The position numbers and the translations under genes were made by a program. A stretch of 58,185 nt of DNA, taken from NCBI GenBank assembly GCA_020350725.1, contig CP070719.1:594579-652763 (forward strand), in the 5' to 3' direction. The first letter of the stretch is position 1. Every line of letters begins with the position of its first letter. Source of the stretch: a bacterium (GTDB taxonomy: Bacteria > BMS3Abin14). Below, in pieces: positions 11,565 to 27,906 of this stretch. The notes under the pieces are model-generated. The model ran no database searches and was not told the DNA's origin. It saw only the letters and a program-made list of their open reading frames with translations.

Positions 11565-13376
11565 CTAAAGCTCCACCGGCGGCCTTCCATCGCTGTCCCA
11601 TCCCCTCTTCCTGTAGTACATCTCCAGGATCCTCTCGTATTCGTCCCGGTCCACAACGCTCCCTCTGGTCGGCCCGGACGGTACAGGGTCGTCGAAGGTC
11701 CTCGACGGTGGAAAGTCATCCTTACGGCTGATGCCCAGTCTGACGTTGATGGCCCGCGTCAGGTCGTATATGTGATTGGAACATTCCATGAGTTCGGACA
11801 GCGGCCTGTCCACGCCGGTGACGGCATGGTAGTAACGCTGATAGTATTCCTCCGGGAAACCGAGCTCGATCCAGGGCAGCCGGCAGACGCCCAGCATGTC
11901 GAAGAGGGGCCTGACCGTCTGGTGGTAAATGACGAAGTCGGCCTTTTCCTCCAGGCCCCACTCCATTCCGTTTTCCAGTTCTGTGGCCACCGTCCAGGCG
12001 CGGGTGTGATGGGCGCCGATGTCAGAGGTCCCGTAACCCAGGGCCATTGATATGGCGCCTCTCGCGTCGTAGGCCGACTGTTCCAGACCCTTGACGTGAC
12101 AGATAATACCCGCCAGGCCGGGCCATCGGTTCAGGATCTCCCTCGCTCCTCCCGCCAGTATGCCGCCCACCCCCTGCCGGCGGGCGATCTTTTCGATCAG
12201 GGAAAGGATGCCCTCCTCGTCGCCCCACTCCAGAGTCAGGCCGCCCAGATCGTCAGGGGAGAGGATCTGCTTTTCAAGACCTTCGATGACAGCTCCGACG
12301 ATGGATCCGGTGGAGATGGTGTCGAGGCCCAGTTCATCACAGAGGGCGTTGGCCTTCAGGATGTAGGCGAAGTTGGAGGCCCCGAGGTTGCTGCCCAGCA
12401 TGGCGGCCGACTCGTATTCGGGGCCCTCTGTCACCGTCCCACGGTATTTACCCTCCTTGACCAGACAGATGTTTCCGCAGGACATGGAGCAGCCGAAGCA
12501 GGCGGAATCTCCGATCTTATACCTTTCCTCCATGGTGTAACCGTTCATCTTGTCGGCCCTGTCGAAGACCGTCTCCTGGAAGTTCCTGGTTGGCAGAATG
12601 CCCATGGTATTGGCGTAATCCACCACCGACATGAGGCCCTGCTGCTGCCAGAACCTGAAGAATTCGTGGGCCTTCAGCTCATCGTATCCCTCCCTGGCCA
12701 TCTTCACCAGAGACTTCAGGTCGGCCACGGGCAGGTCTTTCGAACCCCTCACGGCGATGGCCTTGATGTTCTTTGACCCCATAACGGCCCCGATCCCGAT
12801 CCGTCCGGCGTTGCGGCTCCAGTCGGCGTTGACGCAGGAGAAGACGGCGCCGTTCTCACCGGCCACTCCGATGGAGGCGATCTTCATGTCCTCGTCGCCG
12901 GTAACCTCGCGGACCAGGCTCTCGGCCTCCAGGGTGTTCATGCCCCTGGCCTCGGGGAGGGGTATGATCTTGATCCTGTCGTCCTCTATGGTAAGGGCGG
13001 ACAGCTCATGGGCTCGGCCCCGGAGGACGACCGCATCGTAACCGGCCTGCCTGAGCTCCACTCCGAACACCCCTCCCATGCTGCTGTCTCCGTATATCCC
13101 CGTGGCAGGCGACAGGGTGACGAAGGAGTTCTTTCCCGCGGCCGGCAGGTAGGTGCCGGTGAGAGGGCCTGGGGCAATAACCAGGACATTGTCCGGCCCA
13201 AGGGGATCTATCCGCTTACGGGATTTTCGGATATGGTCGGCGAGGATGCGGGCCCCGAAACCGCGCCCGCCGATGTACTGCAGGGCGAAGGCCTCGTCGA
13301 AGGGCCTTACGGACGACTCGCCCCTCGTGAGGTCGACGTCGAGGATCCTGAAGAAGTAACCGCCCTTAATCTTCAT
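11565..13376 (-). CDS. aor: Aldehyde:ferredoxin oxidoreductase (tungsten type)
   Basis: This 603-residue enzyme of the AOR family oxidises aldehydes to acids, or runs in reverse, with ferredoxin, using a tungsto-bispterin cofactor. The N-terminal domain has GGRGFGARIL and FVTLSPATGIYGDSSMGG. The 4Fe-4S ligands appear as CFGCSMSC (C-x2-C-x3-C), with the fourth cysteine in GVCRLPW. A pterin-binding loop is seen around YDARGAISMALGYG and SDIGAHHTRAW. It overlaps the upstream ferredoxin gene by 11 nt, so the two form one operon. Which aldehyde it handles cannot be told. Requirement for tungsten implies a WtpABC/TupABC importer elsewhere in the genome. Confidence 0.93.
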   Translation of the reverse strand: MKIKGGYFFRILDVDLTRGESSVRPFDEAFALQYIGGRGFGARILADHIRKSRKRIDPLGPDNVLVIAPGPLTGTYLPAAGKNSFVTLSPATGIYGDSSMGGVFGVELRQAGYDAVVLRGRAHELSALTIEDDRIKIIPLPEARGMNTLEAESLVREVTGDEDMKIASIGVAGENGAVFSCVNADWSRNAGRIGIGAVMGSKNIKAIAVRGSKDLPVADLKSLVKMAREGYDELKAHEFFRFWQQQGLMSVVDYANTMGILPTRNFQETVFDRADKMNGYTMEERYKIGDSACFGCSMSCGNICLVKEGKYRGTVTEGPEYESAAMLGSNLGASNFAYILKANALCDELGLDTISTGSIVGAVIEGLEKQILSPDDLGGLTLEWGDEEGILSLIEKIARRQGVGGILAGGAREILNRWPGLAGIICHVKGLEQSAYDARGAISMALGYGTSDIGAHHTRAWTVATELENGMEWGLEEKADFVIYHQTVRPLFDMLGVCRLPWIELGFPEEYYQRYYHAVTGVDRPLSELMECSNHIYDLTRAINVRLGISRKDDFPPSRTFDDPVPSGPTRGSVVDRDEYERILEMYYRKRGWDSDGRPPVEL

Positions 13377-13899
13377 CTTTCTTCACCTTCTCCCTCGCAT
13401 AACGGATGATCTTTTTCTGGCCTCCGTCGAGGTACTCGACCTTGCTCATCTTGGCATAATTCCTTGCGGTGGAAAGCCTGTGGGCCTGACCGAGGATGTG
13501 CTTGGGATGGAACTTGAGGGCCTCCTTGGGGCATGCCTCGACACAGAAGGGCTTCCCGTCACAGAGGTCGCACTTGAGGGGAAGGTCAATGTCGTCGTGG
13601 AGGAACATGGCCCCGAAAGGACAACTCGTTATGCACTGGTTGCAGGAAATGCATTTTTCCTCGTCCAGCCGAACGATACCGTTCTCCCTGTATATGGCGT
13701 GGGTGGGACAGCCCTCACCGCACTTGGGAACTCCGCACTGCCGGCAGACGATGGGCATTCTGATCACGGGGTGAGGATAGAGGACCATGACCCTCATCCG
13801 GCTCTTCTTGGGATTGTTGACGTTTTCCCGTCCGATGCTGCAGGCCAATTCGCAGATCTTGCAGCCGGAACACCGCTCGGGGATGACGGTGAGTTGCAT
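13366..13899 (-). CDS. Multi-cluster 4Fe-4S ferredoxin, AOR partner
   Basis: A 177-residue iron-sulfur protein of the HycB/NrfC type carries four cysteine groups: CSGCKICELAC, CRQCGVPKCGEGC, CISCNQCITSC and CDLCDGKPFCVEAC. It should carry about four 4Fe-4S clusters and pass electrons between the adjacent aldehyde ferredoxin oxidoreductase and a downstream acceptor. It precedes and overlaps aor by 11 nt. Such AOR-adjacent polyferredoxins are a known arrangement. No signal peptide is present, so it acts in the cytoplasm. Confidence 0.9.
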   Translation of the reverse strand: MQLTVIPERCSGCKICELACSIGRENVNNPKKSRMRVMVLYPHPVIRMPIVCRQCGVPKCGEGCPTHAIYRENGIVRLDEEKCISCNQCITSCPFGAMFLHDDIDLPLKCDLCDGKPFCVEACPKEALKFHPKHILGQAHRLSTARNYAKMSKVEYLDGGQKKIIRYAREKVKKDED

Positions 13900-14094: not shown

Positions 14095-14145
14095 GGATAT
14101 ATGGAAAGAAATCCGGAAATCAGAATGCAGAATACGGAGGCCGGG

Positions 14146-14373
14146 ATGTCCTGCAACACAGTTCTCATTTACGGCAAGTCCACGTGACCCTACACCGTCA
14201 AGGCCCGTGAGGCCTATCAGGGGGAAGGTAAGGTCGTCGACTACAGGGACGTGGAGGTCAATCCGGCGATCATCGAAGAGATGCTCGCCCACAGCGGGGG
14301 GAAGAGGAAGGTACCCGTGATCGTCGATCACGGCAAGGTCACGATCGGATTCGGGGGCACCTGAGGCGTTTGA
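14146..14373 (+). CDS. Glutaredoxin-like selenoprotein with two Sec codons (Uxx-star type)
   Basis: Read with TGA as selenocysteine, ATG 14146 (GGAGG 5 nt upstream) gives 75 residues. Beta-strand NTVLIYGKST leads into U14-P-Y-T, where a glutaredoxin has CPYC; then KVVDYRDVEVNP, a cis-proline-like KRKVPVIVDHGKVTIGFGG, and T-U73-G-V before the final TGA (371-373). The VPVIV and GGT elements are normal glutaredoxin landmarks. A terminal U-x-x-stop is the hallmark of what I recall as the Uxx-star glutaredoxin-like (seleno)protein family. Both internal TGAs (14185-14187, 14362-14364) precede hairpins at the position of bacterial SECIS elements. It is divergent from aor/ferredoxin. A redox role is inferred; the substrate is unknown. 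Confidence 0.85.
14188..14223 (+). promoter_or_regulatory. Candidate bacterial SECIS element 1
   Basis: After the first in-frame TGA, AGGCC (14201-14205) and GGCCT (14211-14215) form a perfect stem with loop CGTGA, starting 18 nt after the TGA. An outer CCCT (14188-14191) can pair with AGGG (14219-14222). Position and guanosines in the loop fit SelB-binding SECIS hairpins. Confidence 0.6.
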
Positions 14374-14374
14374 G

Positions 14375-14392
14375 GACCGGCGGTCGCCGGTC
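14375..14392 (+). promoter_or_regulatory. Candidate bacterial SECIS element 2
   Basis: GACCGGC (14375-14381) and GCCGGTC (14386-14392) form a perfect 7-bp stem closed by loop GGTC, beginning 17 nt after the second in-frame TGA. GGUC is also the apical loop of the E. coli fdhF SECIS that SelB recognises. No T run follows, so it is not a terminator. It lies beyond the stop codon, in the 3' untranslated region. Confidence 0.7.
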
Positions 14393-14502
14393 GATCAGAA
14401 AGCCCACCGCGAAGACCCCAGAGAACTCATGAAAGCCGGGTAGCGGGGTTCGGAACCCGGGATCCTGGTTTCCGAAAAACCGCGACGACAGGAGATCCAT
14501 TG

Positions 14503-14531
14503 AAAAAGCCGGGGATCAACCCCGGCTTTTT
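14503..14531. terminator. Bidirectional intrinsic terminator
   Basis: AAAAAGCCGGGG (14503-14514) and CCCCGGCTTTTT (14520-14531) form a perfect 12-bp stem with loop ATCAA, with T runs for both strands. It sits between the convergent selenoprotein gene and the hypothetical gene at 14559-15173. Confidence 0.9.
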
Positions 14532-14558
14532 CCTTTTGACCGGTTAACGCTGTTTCCC

Positions 14559-24615: not shown

Positions 24616-24907
24616 GTCGCCACCTCGGCTTTCACTCCGGCGGCTCCAGCATCACCGCCATATTTTGATCCTAACATAAAATCAGGCCCATGAGATCAAG
24701 CTCACTCCCATGGGACGGATCATCTTCGGTCAATGGTATGATGGGGCTCTGCACCGGGAGACGGGACCTGGCCTCGGTGCAAAAAGTACCATTGCCGAGT
24801 CGGCCGAATTGTATTACATAGTATTGCCCTCCGGACAGGCGGCGTCCCCCCTAATATGGAACAGCGGGGATGGTCTGTCAAAGGGGACATTTTCAGGAAA
24901 GGGACAG

Positions 24908-26863
24908 ATGGTGGCTCCCAGAGGAGAGAAAAAACGCCAGCCTCCTGCTGACGGGATCCCGGCGGGATTCATCGAAACCGTTACCGACCGGTTGAGAGAG
25001 AACCTGCGGGTGCGCCGCACCGTGCCCGAGGGCGGCCGTCTCCACATCGACCGGCAGCTCCCCTTCCTGTTGATATACAGGCGGCCGTCCAGACGCGAGG
25101 ACAGCGGCACGGACCGTCTGGTGGTCGGGGAGGCATCCTACCTGATCGCCCCGGGCGGAAAGAGATACAGAGAAACGGTGTCCTCCCTGGTTCGGGCCGT
25201 AGCCAAGACCCAGGCCGAGGCCTTCGGAGCCTTTCTCGTCCTCGAGGTGTGGTCCGTTCCCATGCGTCACCCCTCAGAGGCCAAGAACCAGGATCTGCCG
25301 GTCCAGACCTTTCGCCTTGTCGCCCCGAAGGCCAAGGGGATCCTGACAACTCTGGAAACCCTTGAGGGGGGGTTGAGGAAGGTAAAGGTCGAGGGGTATC
25401 GATTCAAGACCGAGATTGTCCGGGTCAAGAACCCCTCGCCGGCGGGGATGGAGCCCCTTCTGACCGAGGAGGACGTCCGGGGTGCCGATGTTTACCGCGT
25501 CGGGATCGGCGTTCCCCGTATCTATCGGAACGATGAGACGGGCGAGATCTACCCCATTGTTCTCAGGCGCCTTCACCGCAAGCTCTCCAGGATCCTCAGG
25601 ATGGGCGTTTTTCAGTTCACCCGCTCCCTGACGGTACACACTCCGCCCAACTTCCAGGCACTGGGGCCGAGGGCTATGGTGAAGGCCGTATGGGAGGCCG
25701 ATCGCCAGCTGGCGGAGATCGAGAGCTCCTTCGATTTCCTTCTCCTGTCCACCGCATCCAACCCGCAGGCAGCGTGGGCCGAATTCAGGCGGAACGGCTA
25801 TGACCGGCCGCCCGAGTTGCACTATCGACCCGTGCCCGTTGAGCCCGCAGGCCTCAAAAGAGCTCTGTTCCGCATCCCCCTTGAGAGGATCGAGGATCCG
25901 ACCATGGCCTTTCTCTTCAGGGAAAAGCAGGGGGAACTCGACAGGTTGATCACCATGCTCTCCGATCGGGGGACGCAGCGCTTTCTTTACGGAAGTCTCC
26001 AGGTCTTCGGCGGTGTCGGCGAAGACCTGGCGAGAGCGGCCCTGGATCTCCTGGATACCATCCCTCCGCGCACCAGGGACAGCAGATCCAGGTATTCCCT
26101 GGATGCGGCCGCTTTCGCCCAACTGGCCAGAGAGGAGGTTGAGCACTATCGGGTTGTGTGCCCCGATATCATGGCCAGCGTCGAGGTCCGGGAGGACATC
26201 AGGGGCCTCCTGGTCTCCCGGAACAGGCTTCTGGTGGGGAAAACCGTCAGGATTCCGGCCATCAGGGTCCAGGCCCTCCTTCAGCATGAGGTGGGAACCC
26301 ACCTCCTGACCTACATGAACGCTTCCCTTCAACCCTTACGCCAGTTGAAGTACGGCCTGGCCGGGTATGACGACCTTCAGGAGGGCCTCGCCGTTCTGGC
26401 GGAGCATTTCACCGGCGGCCTGACCCGGTCGAGACTCCGTTTCCTCGCGGCACGGGTCATCGCTATTTCCAGGATGGTCGATGGGGCCACATTTGTGGAC
26501 AACTTCAGGGAGCTGGTGGGAGCCCACGGACTCACCAGGCGAAAGGCGTTTGACATCCTCCTGCGGACCTATCGGGGCGGCGGTCTGACAAAGGACGTCG
26601 TCTACCTGAGAGGTCTTCTTCGCCTCATTAAGTATTTTGAGGACGGGGGAGATGTTGATATCCTGTTTACTGGCAAGTTCAGTCGCCAGCACCTGCCCAT
26701 CATCAGGGAACTGCTGTCCCGGGGGGTCCTGTCCGCCCCTGTGCTCCGTCCGCGCTATATGGACGACCCCAGGACGCTCGACAGGATCGACCGGTTGAGG
26801 ACAGGTGTAACTCCCCTGGAATTGACCACCCGAGGGACGTTCAATCAGAGGAAGGCTCAATGA
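24908..26863 (+). CDS. QEGLA-motif metallopeptidase-like protein (DUF1704)
   Basis: About 651 residues of the DUF1704 / flavohemoglobin expression-modulating QEGLA family. The motif LLQHEVGTHLLTYMN provides the zinc-binding histidines, and YDDLQEGLAVLAEHFTGGL is the name-giving motif with a further acidic ligand. The family is related to the KIAA0895/MATCAP tyrosine-tubulin carboxypeptidases, so a carboxypeptidase-like activity is plausible, but no bacterial substrate is known to me. I chose ATG 24908 because GGAAAGGGA precedes it and the upstream 66 codons (to ATG 24710) look unrelated. It overlaps the next gene by ATGA, so the two are coupled. Confidence 0.85.
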   Translation: MVAPRGEKKRQPPADGIPAGFIETVTDRLRENLRVRRTVPEGGRLHIDRQLPFLLIYRRPSRREDSGTDRLVVGEASYLIAPGGKRYRETVSSLVRAVAKTQAEAFGAFLVLEVWSVPMRHPSEAKNQDLPVQTFRLVAPKAKGILTTLETLEGGLRKVKVEGYRFKTEIVRVKNPSPAGMEPLLTEEDVRGADVYRVGIGVPRIYRNDETGEIYPIVLRRLHRKLSRILRMGVFQFTRSLTVHTPPNFQALGPRAMVKAVWEADRQLAEIESSFDFLLLSTASNPQAAWAEFRRNGYDRPPELHYRPVPVEPAGLKRALFRIPLERIEDPTMAFLFREKQGELDRLITMLSDRGTQRFLYGSLQVFGGVGEDLARAALDLLDTIPPRTRDSRSRYSLDAAAFAQLAREEVEHYRVVCPDIMASVEVREDIRGLLVSRNRLLVGKTVRIPAIRVQALLQHEVGTHLLTYMNASLQPLRQLKYGLAGYDDLQEGLAVLAEHFTGGLTRSRLRFLAARVIAISRMVDGATFVDNFRELVGAHGLTRRKAFDILLRTYRGGGLTKDVVYLRGLLRLIKYFEDGGDVDILFTGKFSRQHLPIIRELLSRGVLSAPVLRPRYMDDPRTLDRIDRLRTGVTPLELTTRGTFNQRKAQ

Positions 26864-27906
26864 AAATAGGTTTCGTGGTTAACGAAGTCAGCACCGAAGA
26901 ACCGGGCTACACGACAACAAGGCTGGCCATGGCGTCCGTCAACCGGGGATACCAGACATGGCTCATTGGCTCCGGTGACTTCGCCTACGACCCCGACGAG
27001 CACATCCGTGCCCGAGCGGTGACCGTCCCCAAGACCAAATACAAGTCCCTCAGGATCTTTCTCGAGGATCTCCAGGGCAGCAGGGCCGTATCCAGGAGGA
27101 TCACCGTCGATGATCTCGACGTCCTCATGCTCAGATACGATCCCTCCACTGAAGTGGGATTGCGATCTTGGGCCCGGACCGCCGGCATCGAATTCGGCCG
27201 CCTGGCCATGCGCCGTGGCGTCATCGTGCTCAACGATCCCAACGGTCTGGCCAAGGCAATGAACAAGATGTATTTCCAGCTTTTCCCCGAGGAGGTCCGC
27301 CCCAAGACAATGATCACCCGCAACCGTGAGGAGATCAAGCACTTCGTCGAGGAGATGGGAGGGAGGTGCATCCTGAAGCCCCTCCAGGGATCCGGGGGAA
27401 AGGGCATTTTCCTGGTGACCCCCGAGAGCAGGGGAAACATCAACCAGATGATCGAGGCGGTCAGCCGGGACGGTTACGTGATCGCCCAGGAATATCTGCC
27501 AGCCGCCGAGGAGGGGGATATCCGCCTGTTCGTGATGAACGGTCACCCCCTGAGGTACAAGGGAAAATATGCCGCCTTCCGCCGCGTCCGCTCGGATGAT
27601 GACATCCGGAGCAACCTCCACGCCGGCGGCAAGAAGGCGCCCGCTGAGATAACCGCTGAACACCTGAGGATCGTCGAAATGGTCCGGCCCAAGCTGGTCC
27701 AGGACGGCATGTTCCTGGTGGGACTGGACATCGTCGGGGACAAACTCATGGAGATAAACGTCTTCAGCCCGGGGGGGCTCGGGAGCGCCAAGAGTTTCGA
27801 GAAGGTCAACTTCTCCAATGCCGTCCTCGACGCGCTGGAGAGGAAGGTCGACTATATGACCTTCTACCGGAGGAATTTCGACAACACGGAGATGGCCACC
27901 CTTTAG
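26860..27906 (+). CDS. Glutathione synthase-like ATP-grasp enzyme
   Basis: An ATP-grasp ligase of 348 residues in the GshB/RimK group. VLMLRYDP and GVIVLNDPNGLAKAMNKMYFQLFP mark the N-terminal lobe. CILKPLQGSGGKGIFLV is the ATP-binding lysine and glycine loop, VIAQEYLPAAEEGDIRLFVMNG continues it, and EINVFSPGGLGS holds metal ligands (E and N). It should couple an amine to a carboxylate at the expense of ATP. In other genomes this type often sits with DUF1704 proteins, as it does here. True glutathione synthesis would also need a GshA, which is not in the window. Confidence 0.85.
   Translation: MKIGFVVNEVSTEEPGYTTTRLAMASVNRGYQTWLIGSGDFAYDPDEHIRARAVTVPKTKYKSLRIFLEDLQGSRAVSRRITVDDLDVLMLRYDPSTEVGLRSWARTAGIEFGRLAMRRGVIVLNDPNGLAKAMNKMYFQLFPEEVRPKTMITRNREEIKHFVEEMGGRCILKPLQGSGGKGIFLVTPESRGNINQMIEAVSRDGYVIAQEYLPAAEEGDIRLFVMNGHPLRYKGKYAAFRRVRSDDDIRSNLHAGGKKAPAEITAEHLRIVEMVRPKLVQDGMFLVGLDIVGDKLMEINVFSPGGLGSAKSFEKVNFSNAVLDALERKVDYMTFYRRNFDNTEMATL

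Follow-up and report, generated by a model that had tools for sequence, protein, structure and literature searches.

The stretch of DNA analysed here (the window; 58,185 nucleotides of contig CP070719.1, from a bacterium of the BMS3Abin14 lineage) carries at positions 14146-14373 a small gene for a glutaredoxin-like protein, in which two in-frame TGA codons are predicted to be read as selenocysteine (Sec). Family-model searches and comparison with relatives confirmed, at the level of sequence, that this is a genuine two-Sec glutaredoxin-like gene and a new addition to the catalogued UXX-star selenoprotein family 1. The product would probably work as a minimal glutaredoxin devoid of the last helix, in which Sec14 attacks and Sec73 resolves, thereby forming what we infer to be a two-selenium relay. 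The features of the gene are as follows:

14136..14140, + strand: Shine-Dalgarno sequence GGAGG, 5 nucleotides 5' of the ATG (sequence)
14146..14373, + strand: coding sequence of a UXX-star family 1 selenoprotein, 75 amino acids plus stop (translation with TGA as Sec; NF041114 match)
14185..14187, + strand: TGA codon 14, Sec of the UPYT motif, at the nucleophile position of CPYC (translation and homologue comparison)
14362..14364, + strand: TGA codon 73, Sec of the terminal U-G-V-stop (translation and homologue comparison)
14371..14373, + strand: TGA, the true stop codon (replaced by TAA or TAG in 43 of 73 members)
14502..14532, no strand assigned: strong hairpin GAAAAAGCCGGGG-ATCAA-CCCCGGCTTTTTC, a probable (possibly bidirectional) terminator (z -4.2; U-rich 3' side)

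Gene, family assignment and conservation

Translation of positions 14146-14370 with TGA read as Sec gave MSCNTVLIYGKSTUPYTVKAREAYQGEGKVVDYRDVEVNPAIIEEMLAHSGGKRKVPVIVDHGKVTIGFGGTUGV, followed by TGA, and reproduced exactly the 75-codon length, coordinates, frame, U14 and U73 given in an earlier note, which had been made from the sequence alone. The ribosome binding site described there was found as the GGAGG listed above, and a purine-rich site also precedes the UXX-star genes of the relatives. No open reading frame (ORF) of at least 60 amino acids under translation table 11 follows the two-TGA frame, and ordinary ORF calling would therefore miss the gene, as the note had stated. The terminator claimed there would correspond to the strong hairpin at 14502-14532, which is missing from the list produced by a simple terminator scan.

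The protein matched NF041114 (NCBIfam, UXX-star selenoprotein family 1) with 110 bits, against a curated equivalog cut-off of 72, at an E-value of 4.7e-32 and over model positions 1-70 of 70; in a scan of the whole genome with this model, the locus was the only match (95.8 bits, with 2 TGAs inside). NF041212 (NCBIfam, Uxx-star family glutaredoxin-like (seleno)protein), a broader grouping, was matched with 87.2 bits (cut-off 66) and Pfam Glutaredoxin with 41.5 bits (cut-off 22.9). The two NCBIfam matches bear out the assignment to Uxx-star glutaredoxin-like (seleno)proteins made in the earlier note. Both features of family 1 membership were identified; (i) a C-terminus of the form U73-G-V-stop, and (ii) U14-P-Y-T (UxxT) near the N-terminus. 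The resolving Cys expected at the fourth motif position of a dithiol, CPYC-type glutaredoxin is absent, and Thr17 is found instead. In its full-length match, UxxT motif, C-terminal Uxx-stop and two Sec, the window protein agrees with family 1, and no difference from it was found. Alignments to UXX-star families 2 and 3, and to the HUGP/GUXX-star fusion (NF041211, NF047338, NF045501), span the whole domain or the greater part of it, at 45-50 bits and under the respective cut-offs; family 2 has one Sec according to a 2026 review (PMC13188914), in contrast to two in the window protein. The UxxT two-Sec kind is already known, since the same review catalogues the NF041114 family as “Distant Grx-like protein 1 (UXX-star selenoprotein family 1)”, UxxT, with 2 Sec. 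In passages of the review's cited family source (Zhang and Gladyshev 2008), the Grx-like families are given as UxxC.

The class to which the window belongs was searched in 12 genomes, and a search of the phylum returned the same 12. The gene is present in 10 of them; both TGAs are kept in all 10 full-length copies, each of which ends in Uxx-stop (UGA-Sec, two residues, stop). One genome (G005) holds, beside a run of N, a second, partial UXX-star match near-identical to its full copy (G005:C1:541768-541863, L029). Differences between close relatives fall mostly at third codon positions and amount, against the copy L026, to 14, 14 and 38 at the three positions, respectively; L031 and L032 were left out of this codon comparison, as a one-codon insertion before Sec73 puts them out of register. 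The class of a Desulfobacterales relative was covered by 291 genomes, with 107 above the NF041212 cut-off.

From the loci retrieved in both lineages, 73 distinct UXX-star proteins, the window copy included, were collected with a pattern that accepted only Sec or Cys at position 73; forms with another residue there would go uncounted. Position 73 is Sec in 73/73 members, position 14 is Sec in 65/73 and Cys in 8/73, and position 17 is Thr throughout (73/73); 62 of the 73 carry two Sec and lack Cys altogether. The stop after the Sec73 tail is TGA in 30, TAA in 30 and TAG in 13 members, and this variation at one and the same place confirms the protein end. Two further members (L073 and L081) end in U-x-x-x-stop, and among the other matches, outside the 73, seven are YruB-like and have a longer tail. 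The Desulfobacteria loci L071, L085, L105 and L110 encode YruB-like UPYC glutaredoxins with a longer tail and without the C-terminal Uxx-stop, yet above the NF041212 cut-off, and that model, which in Desulfobacteria lets through YruB-like proteins with UPYC or CPYC, seems too wide there. The comparison showed that the putative reactive pair conserved among the members consists of Sec or Cys at position 14 and always Sec at position 73, with no other conserved thiol.

SECIS hairpins and host machinery

In bacterial selenocysteine insertion sequences (SECIS), the apical loop lies about 16-37 nucleotides after the UGA and carries a G within its first two bases. Such loops were found after both UGAs, CGTGA at 18 nucleotides and GGTC at 17 nucleotides, in agreement with the perfect hairpins which the earlier note had placed 17-18 nucleotides after each TGA:

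14201..14215, + strand: SECIS 1 apical hairpin AGGCC-CGTGA-GGCCT, a perfect stem of 5 base pairs inside the coding region (loop 18 nucleotides after TGA14)
14375..14392, + strand: SECIS 2 apical hairpin GACCGGC-GGTC-GCCGGTC, a perfect stem of 7 base pairs wholly in the 3' untranslated region (loop 17 nucleotides after TGA73; z -3.8)

SECIS 1 lies in the codons for A-R-E-A. Covariation was used for this element because its stability by itself is not significant, the window copy showing no extra stability against shuffles (z -0.19). Among the members with Sec14, the codons of Ala20 and Glu22 are GCT-GAA in 39, GCC-GAG in 21 and mixed in 2 (Fisher p 2.6e-14, uncorrected for shared ancestry), and the SECIS 1 stem therefore stays paired at synonymous sites. 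This p value is too strong, since related sequences are not independent; still, both codon states occur across the sample. Arg21 is encoded by CGT in 58/65 of the Sec14 members, whereas six different codons are in use for the other Arg residues of these genes.

As only two codons follow Sec73, SECIS 2 lies entirely past the stop codon. In the alignment of the ten phylum copies, 87% of the stem cells are paired, compared to 71.5% in shuffles, 5/7 pairs show changes on both sides, and the covariation score is 0.489 versus 0.194, with all slid controls lower. In a simple scan of the 73 members, 71 had a stem with 5 or more pairs and 71 had G as the first or second loop base, and the mean score was 12.1 compared to 6.3 in shuffles; the loop lay 16-25 nucleotides after the TGA, offsets which are approximate because the scan takes the best hairpin within range. 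An Rfam scan of the region gave no score near a gathering threshold. By this comparative evidence both SECIS hairpins are under selection.

The host genome (one contig, 2.78 Mb) encodes selA (599.7 bits), selB (367 bits), selD (244.4 bits) and selC, a tRNA-Sec with anticodon TCA (74.2 bits). The selD gene (G000:C1:1315718-1316350, L041; outside the window) contains an in-frame TGA, and SelD is therefore probably a selenoprotein itself. The earlier note had proposed to look for these four genes and had named, as outcomes speaking against the gene, their absence, homologues devoid of Cys or Sec at the two positions, and a frame not conserved across the TGAs; all four genes are present, and Cys or Sec at both positions as well as the frame are conserved.

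The frame could also be regarded as a chance read-through frame or as a decayed glutaredoxin pseudogene, coding for no selenoprotein. Within the whole of this GC-rich window, 195 frames begin with ATG, span 70 codons or more and contain exactly two TGAs internally, so a two-TGA frame is by itself no evidence. Homology and covariation, however, raise the gene above the level of chance. The family score, both TGAs in all full-length phylum copies, the excess of third-position differences, the covarying SECIS hairpins and the presence of selA, selB, selC and selD speak against this explanation, which is already contradicted by the comparison and which we regard as vanishingly improbable.

Predicted fold and the proposed selenium pair

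The structure predicted by AlphaFold from 39 aligned members has a predicted local distance difference test (pLDDT) value of 91 and the element order E-H-E-H-E-E, in which the usual last glutaredoxin helix is absent. The best Foldseek matches are the glutaredoxins 3ic4, 4tr1, 4tr0, 4mje and 3grx, with 64-69 columns aligned for 3ic4, 4tr1, 4tr0 and 3grx and a TM-score to 3ic4 of 0.75 by query length. A glutaredoxin (thioredoxin-like) fold without the final helix is thus predicted with confidence. The window protein has the fold, nucleophile position and VP loop in common with dithiol glutaredoxins (E. coli Grx3, 3grx; A. fulgidus Grx-1, 3ic4), and differs from them in having UPYT for CPYC, no last helix, and a Sec two residues before its end. 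In ordinary glutaredoxins, the segment between the last strand and the last helix contacts glutathione. By reading of the alignment, Sec73 would fall at the segment leading from this last strand into the last helix; it would sit where the fold ends, in the region that ordinary glutaredoxins use for the glutathione-contact loop and the last helix.

The pattern over the 73 relatives suggests that the two selenium atoms act as one pair. The Sec14 selenolate would attack a disulfide, an S-glutathionyl or a similar oxidised substrate, and Sec73 would resolve the product as an intramolecular diselenide, or as a selenosulfide in the Cys14 forms; no CxxC resolver exists, because position 17 is always Thr. 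Regeneration would be carried out by glutathione or by a thioredoxin- or ferredoxin-linked reductase. We infer that Sec14 and Sec73 lie close to each other and form a diselenide or selenosulfide, and likewise which reductant acts on them. Glutathione may be available, since the window contains a glutathione synthetase gene (26860-27906, + strand; NF009110, 476.7 bits, cut-off 408); this gene lies directly 3' of that of a QEGLA-motif protein (24710-26863, + strand).

A partnership of Sec73 with Sec14 had been proposed in the earlier note, and it gains indirect support from the invariant Sec73, the invariant Thr17 and the many members free of Cys, its redox chemistry being a proposal still. The accompanying point that no second Cys lies near U14 agrees with the Thr at position 17 and needs one correction: Cys3, near the N-terminus, is the sole Cys of the window protein, and it is not conserved. 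The likeness drawn there to thioredoxin reductases proved to be loose only, as the tail here extends just two residues past Sec and is part of the glutaredoxin domain itself. We hold it possible, though somewhat short of likely, that the protein represents a self-contained diselenide glutaredoxin, with one Sec at the nucleophile position, another at the chain end, and the second recoding directed by a SECIS wholly past the stop.

Several points weigh against the relay. Sec73, never Cys in the sample even beside Cys14, could have a role of its own; the homologues come from two lineages only; no biochemistry was found for any UXX-star family 1 member; and no partner is indicated, because the neighbouring genes differ between lineages. 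The main rival is a paired metal site, in which the two Sec would bind soft metals or metalloids (e.g. Hg, Cu, As or Se species) and the protein would use its glutaredoxin scaffold to chaperone or scavenge metals. This suggestion is found in the review PMC13188914, and an invariant pair without any other thiol suits a two-coordinate site. However, the UPYT motif and the VP glutaredoxin signature are retained, and none of the neighbours examined in both lineages was recognised as a metal transporter, a regulator or a resistance gene; we consider such a site unlikely. Alternatively, the two residues might have separate roles, Sec14 as a monothiol-type, glutathione-dependent centre and Sec73 as a second site, which would be peroxidase-like or serve to anchor a partner protein. 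Thr17 occurs in all members, as at single-thiol sites, the window also encodes a glutathione synthetase, and Cys can take the place of Sec at position 14 with Sec73 unchanged. Among the members counted there is, on the other hand, no UXX-star form with one of the two residues only, although the pattern demanded Sec or Cys at both; separate roles seem distinctly improbable.

Gene neighbourhood and significance for the family

Two genes on the opposite strand diverge from the UXX-star gene:

13366..13899, - strand: 4Fe-4S ferredoxin-type protein, divergent neighbour (context; no partnership demonstrated), adjacent in same-phylum relatives
11565..13376, - strand: aldehyde ferredoxin oxidoreductase-like protein, divergent neighbour (family model matched under its equivalog cut-off), adjacent in same-phylum relatives

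The aldehyde ferredoxin oxidoreductase-like gene is likely cotranscribed with that of the ferredoxin, and the relatives examined share the divergent arrangement, among them G005, where the other flank is different. No ferredoxin or aldehyde ferredoxin oxidoreductase matches were found near the Desulfobacteria copies. Among 40 Desulfobacteria loci in total (a few of them not UXX-star), HPr was found at 24, PtsI at 23 and a LOG-like protein (lysine decarboxylase family) at 26; ptsH, ptsI and the LOG-like gene recur by the UXX-star gene at L049-L077 and L120-L125. The neighbourhood was considered as a clue to function and rejected, the neighbours differing between lineages and being judged to reflect lineage-specific synteny in place of a shared pathway.

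For the family as a whole, the invariance of Sec73, compared to position 14, where Cys is possible, marks the C-terminal Sec as the defining residue. As SECIS 2 lies outside protein-coding constraint, its stem covaries openly, and the members provide clean material for working out the rule that bacterial SECIS follow. Two UGAs stand nine bases apart in many members, the first read as Sec and the second as stop, which makes them a natural test of SECIS spacing.
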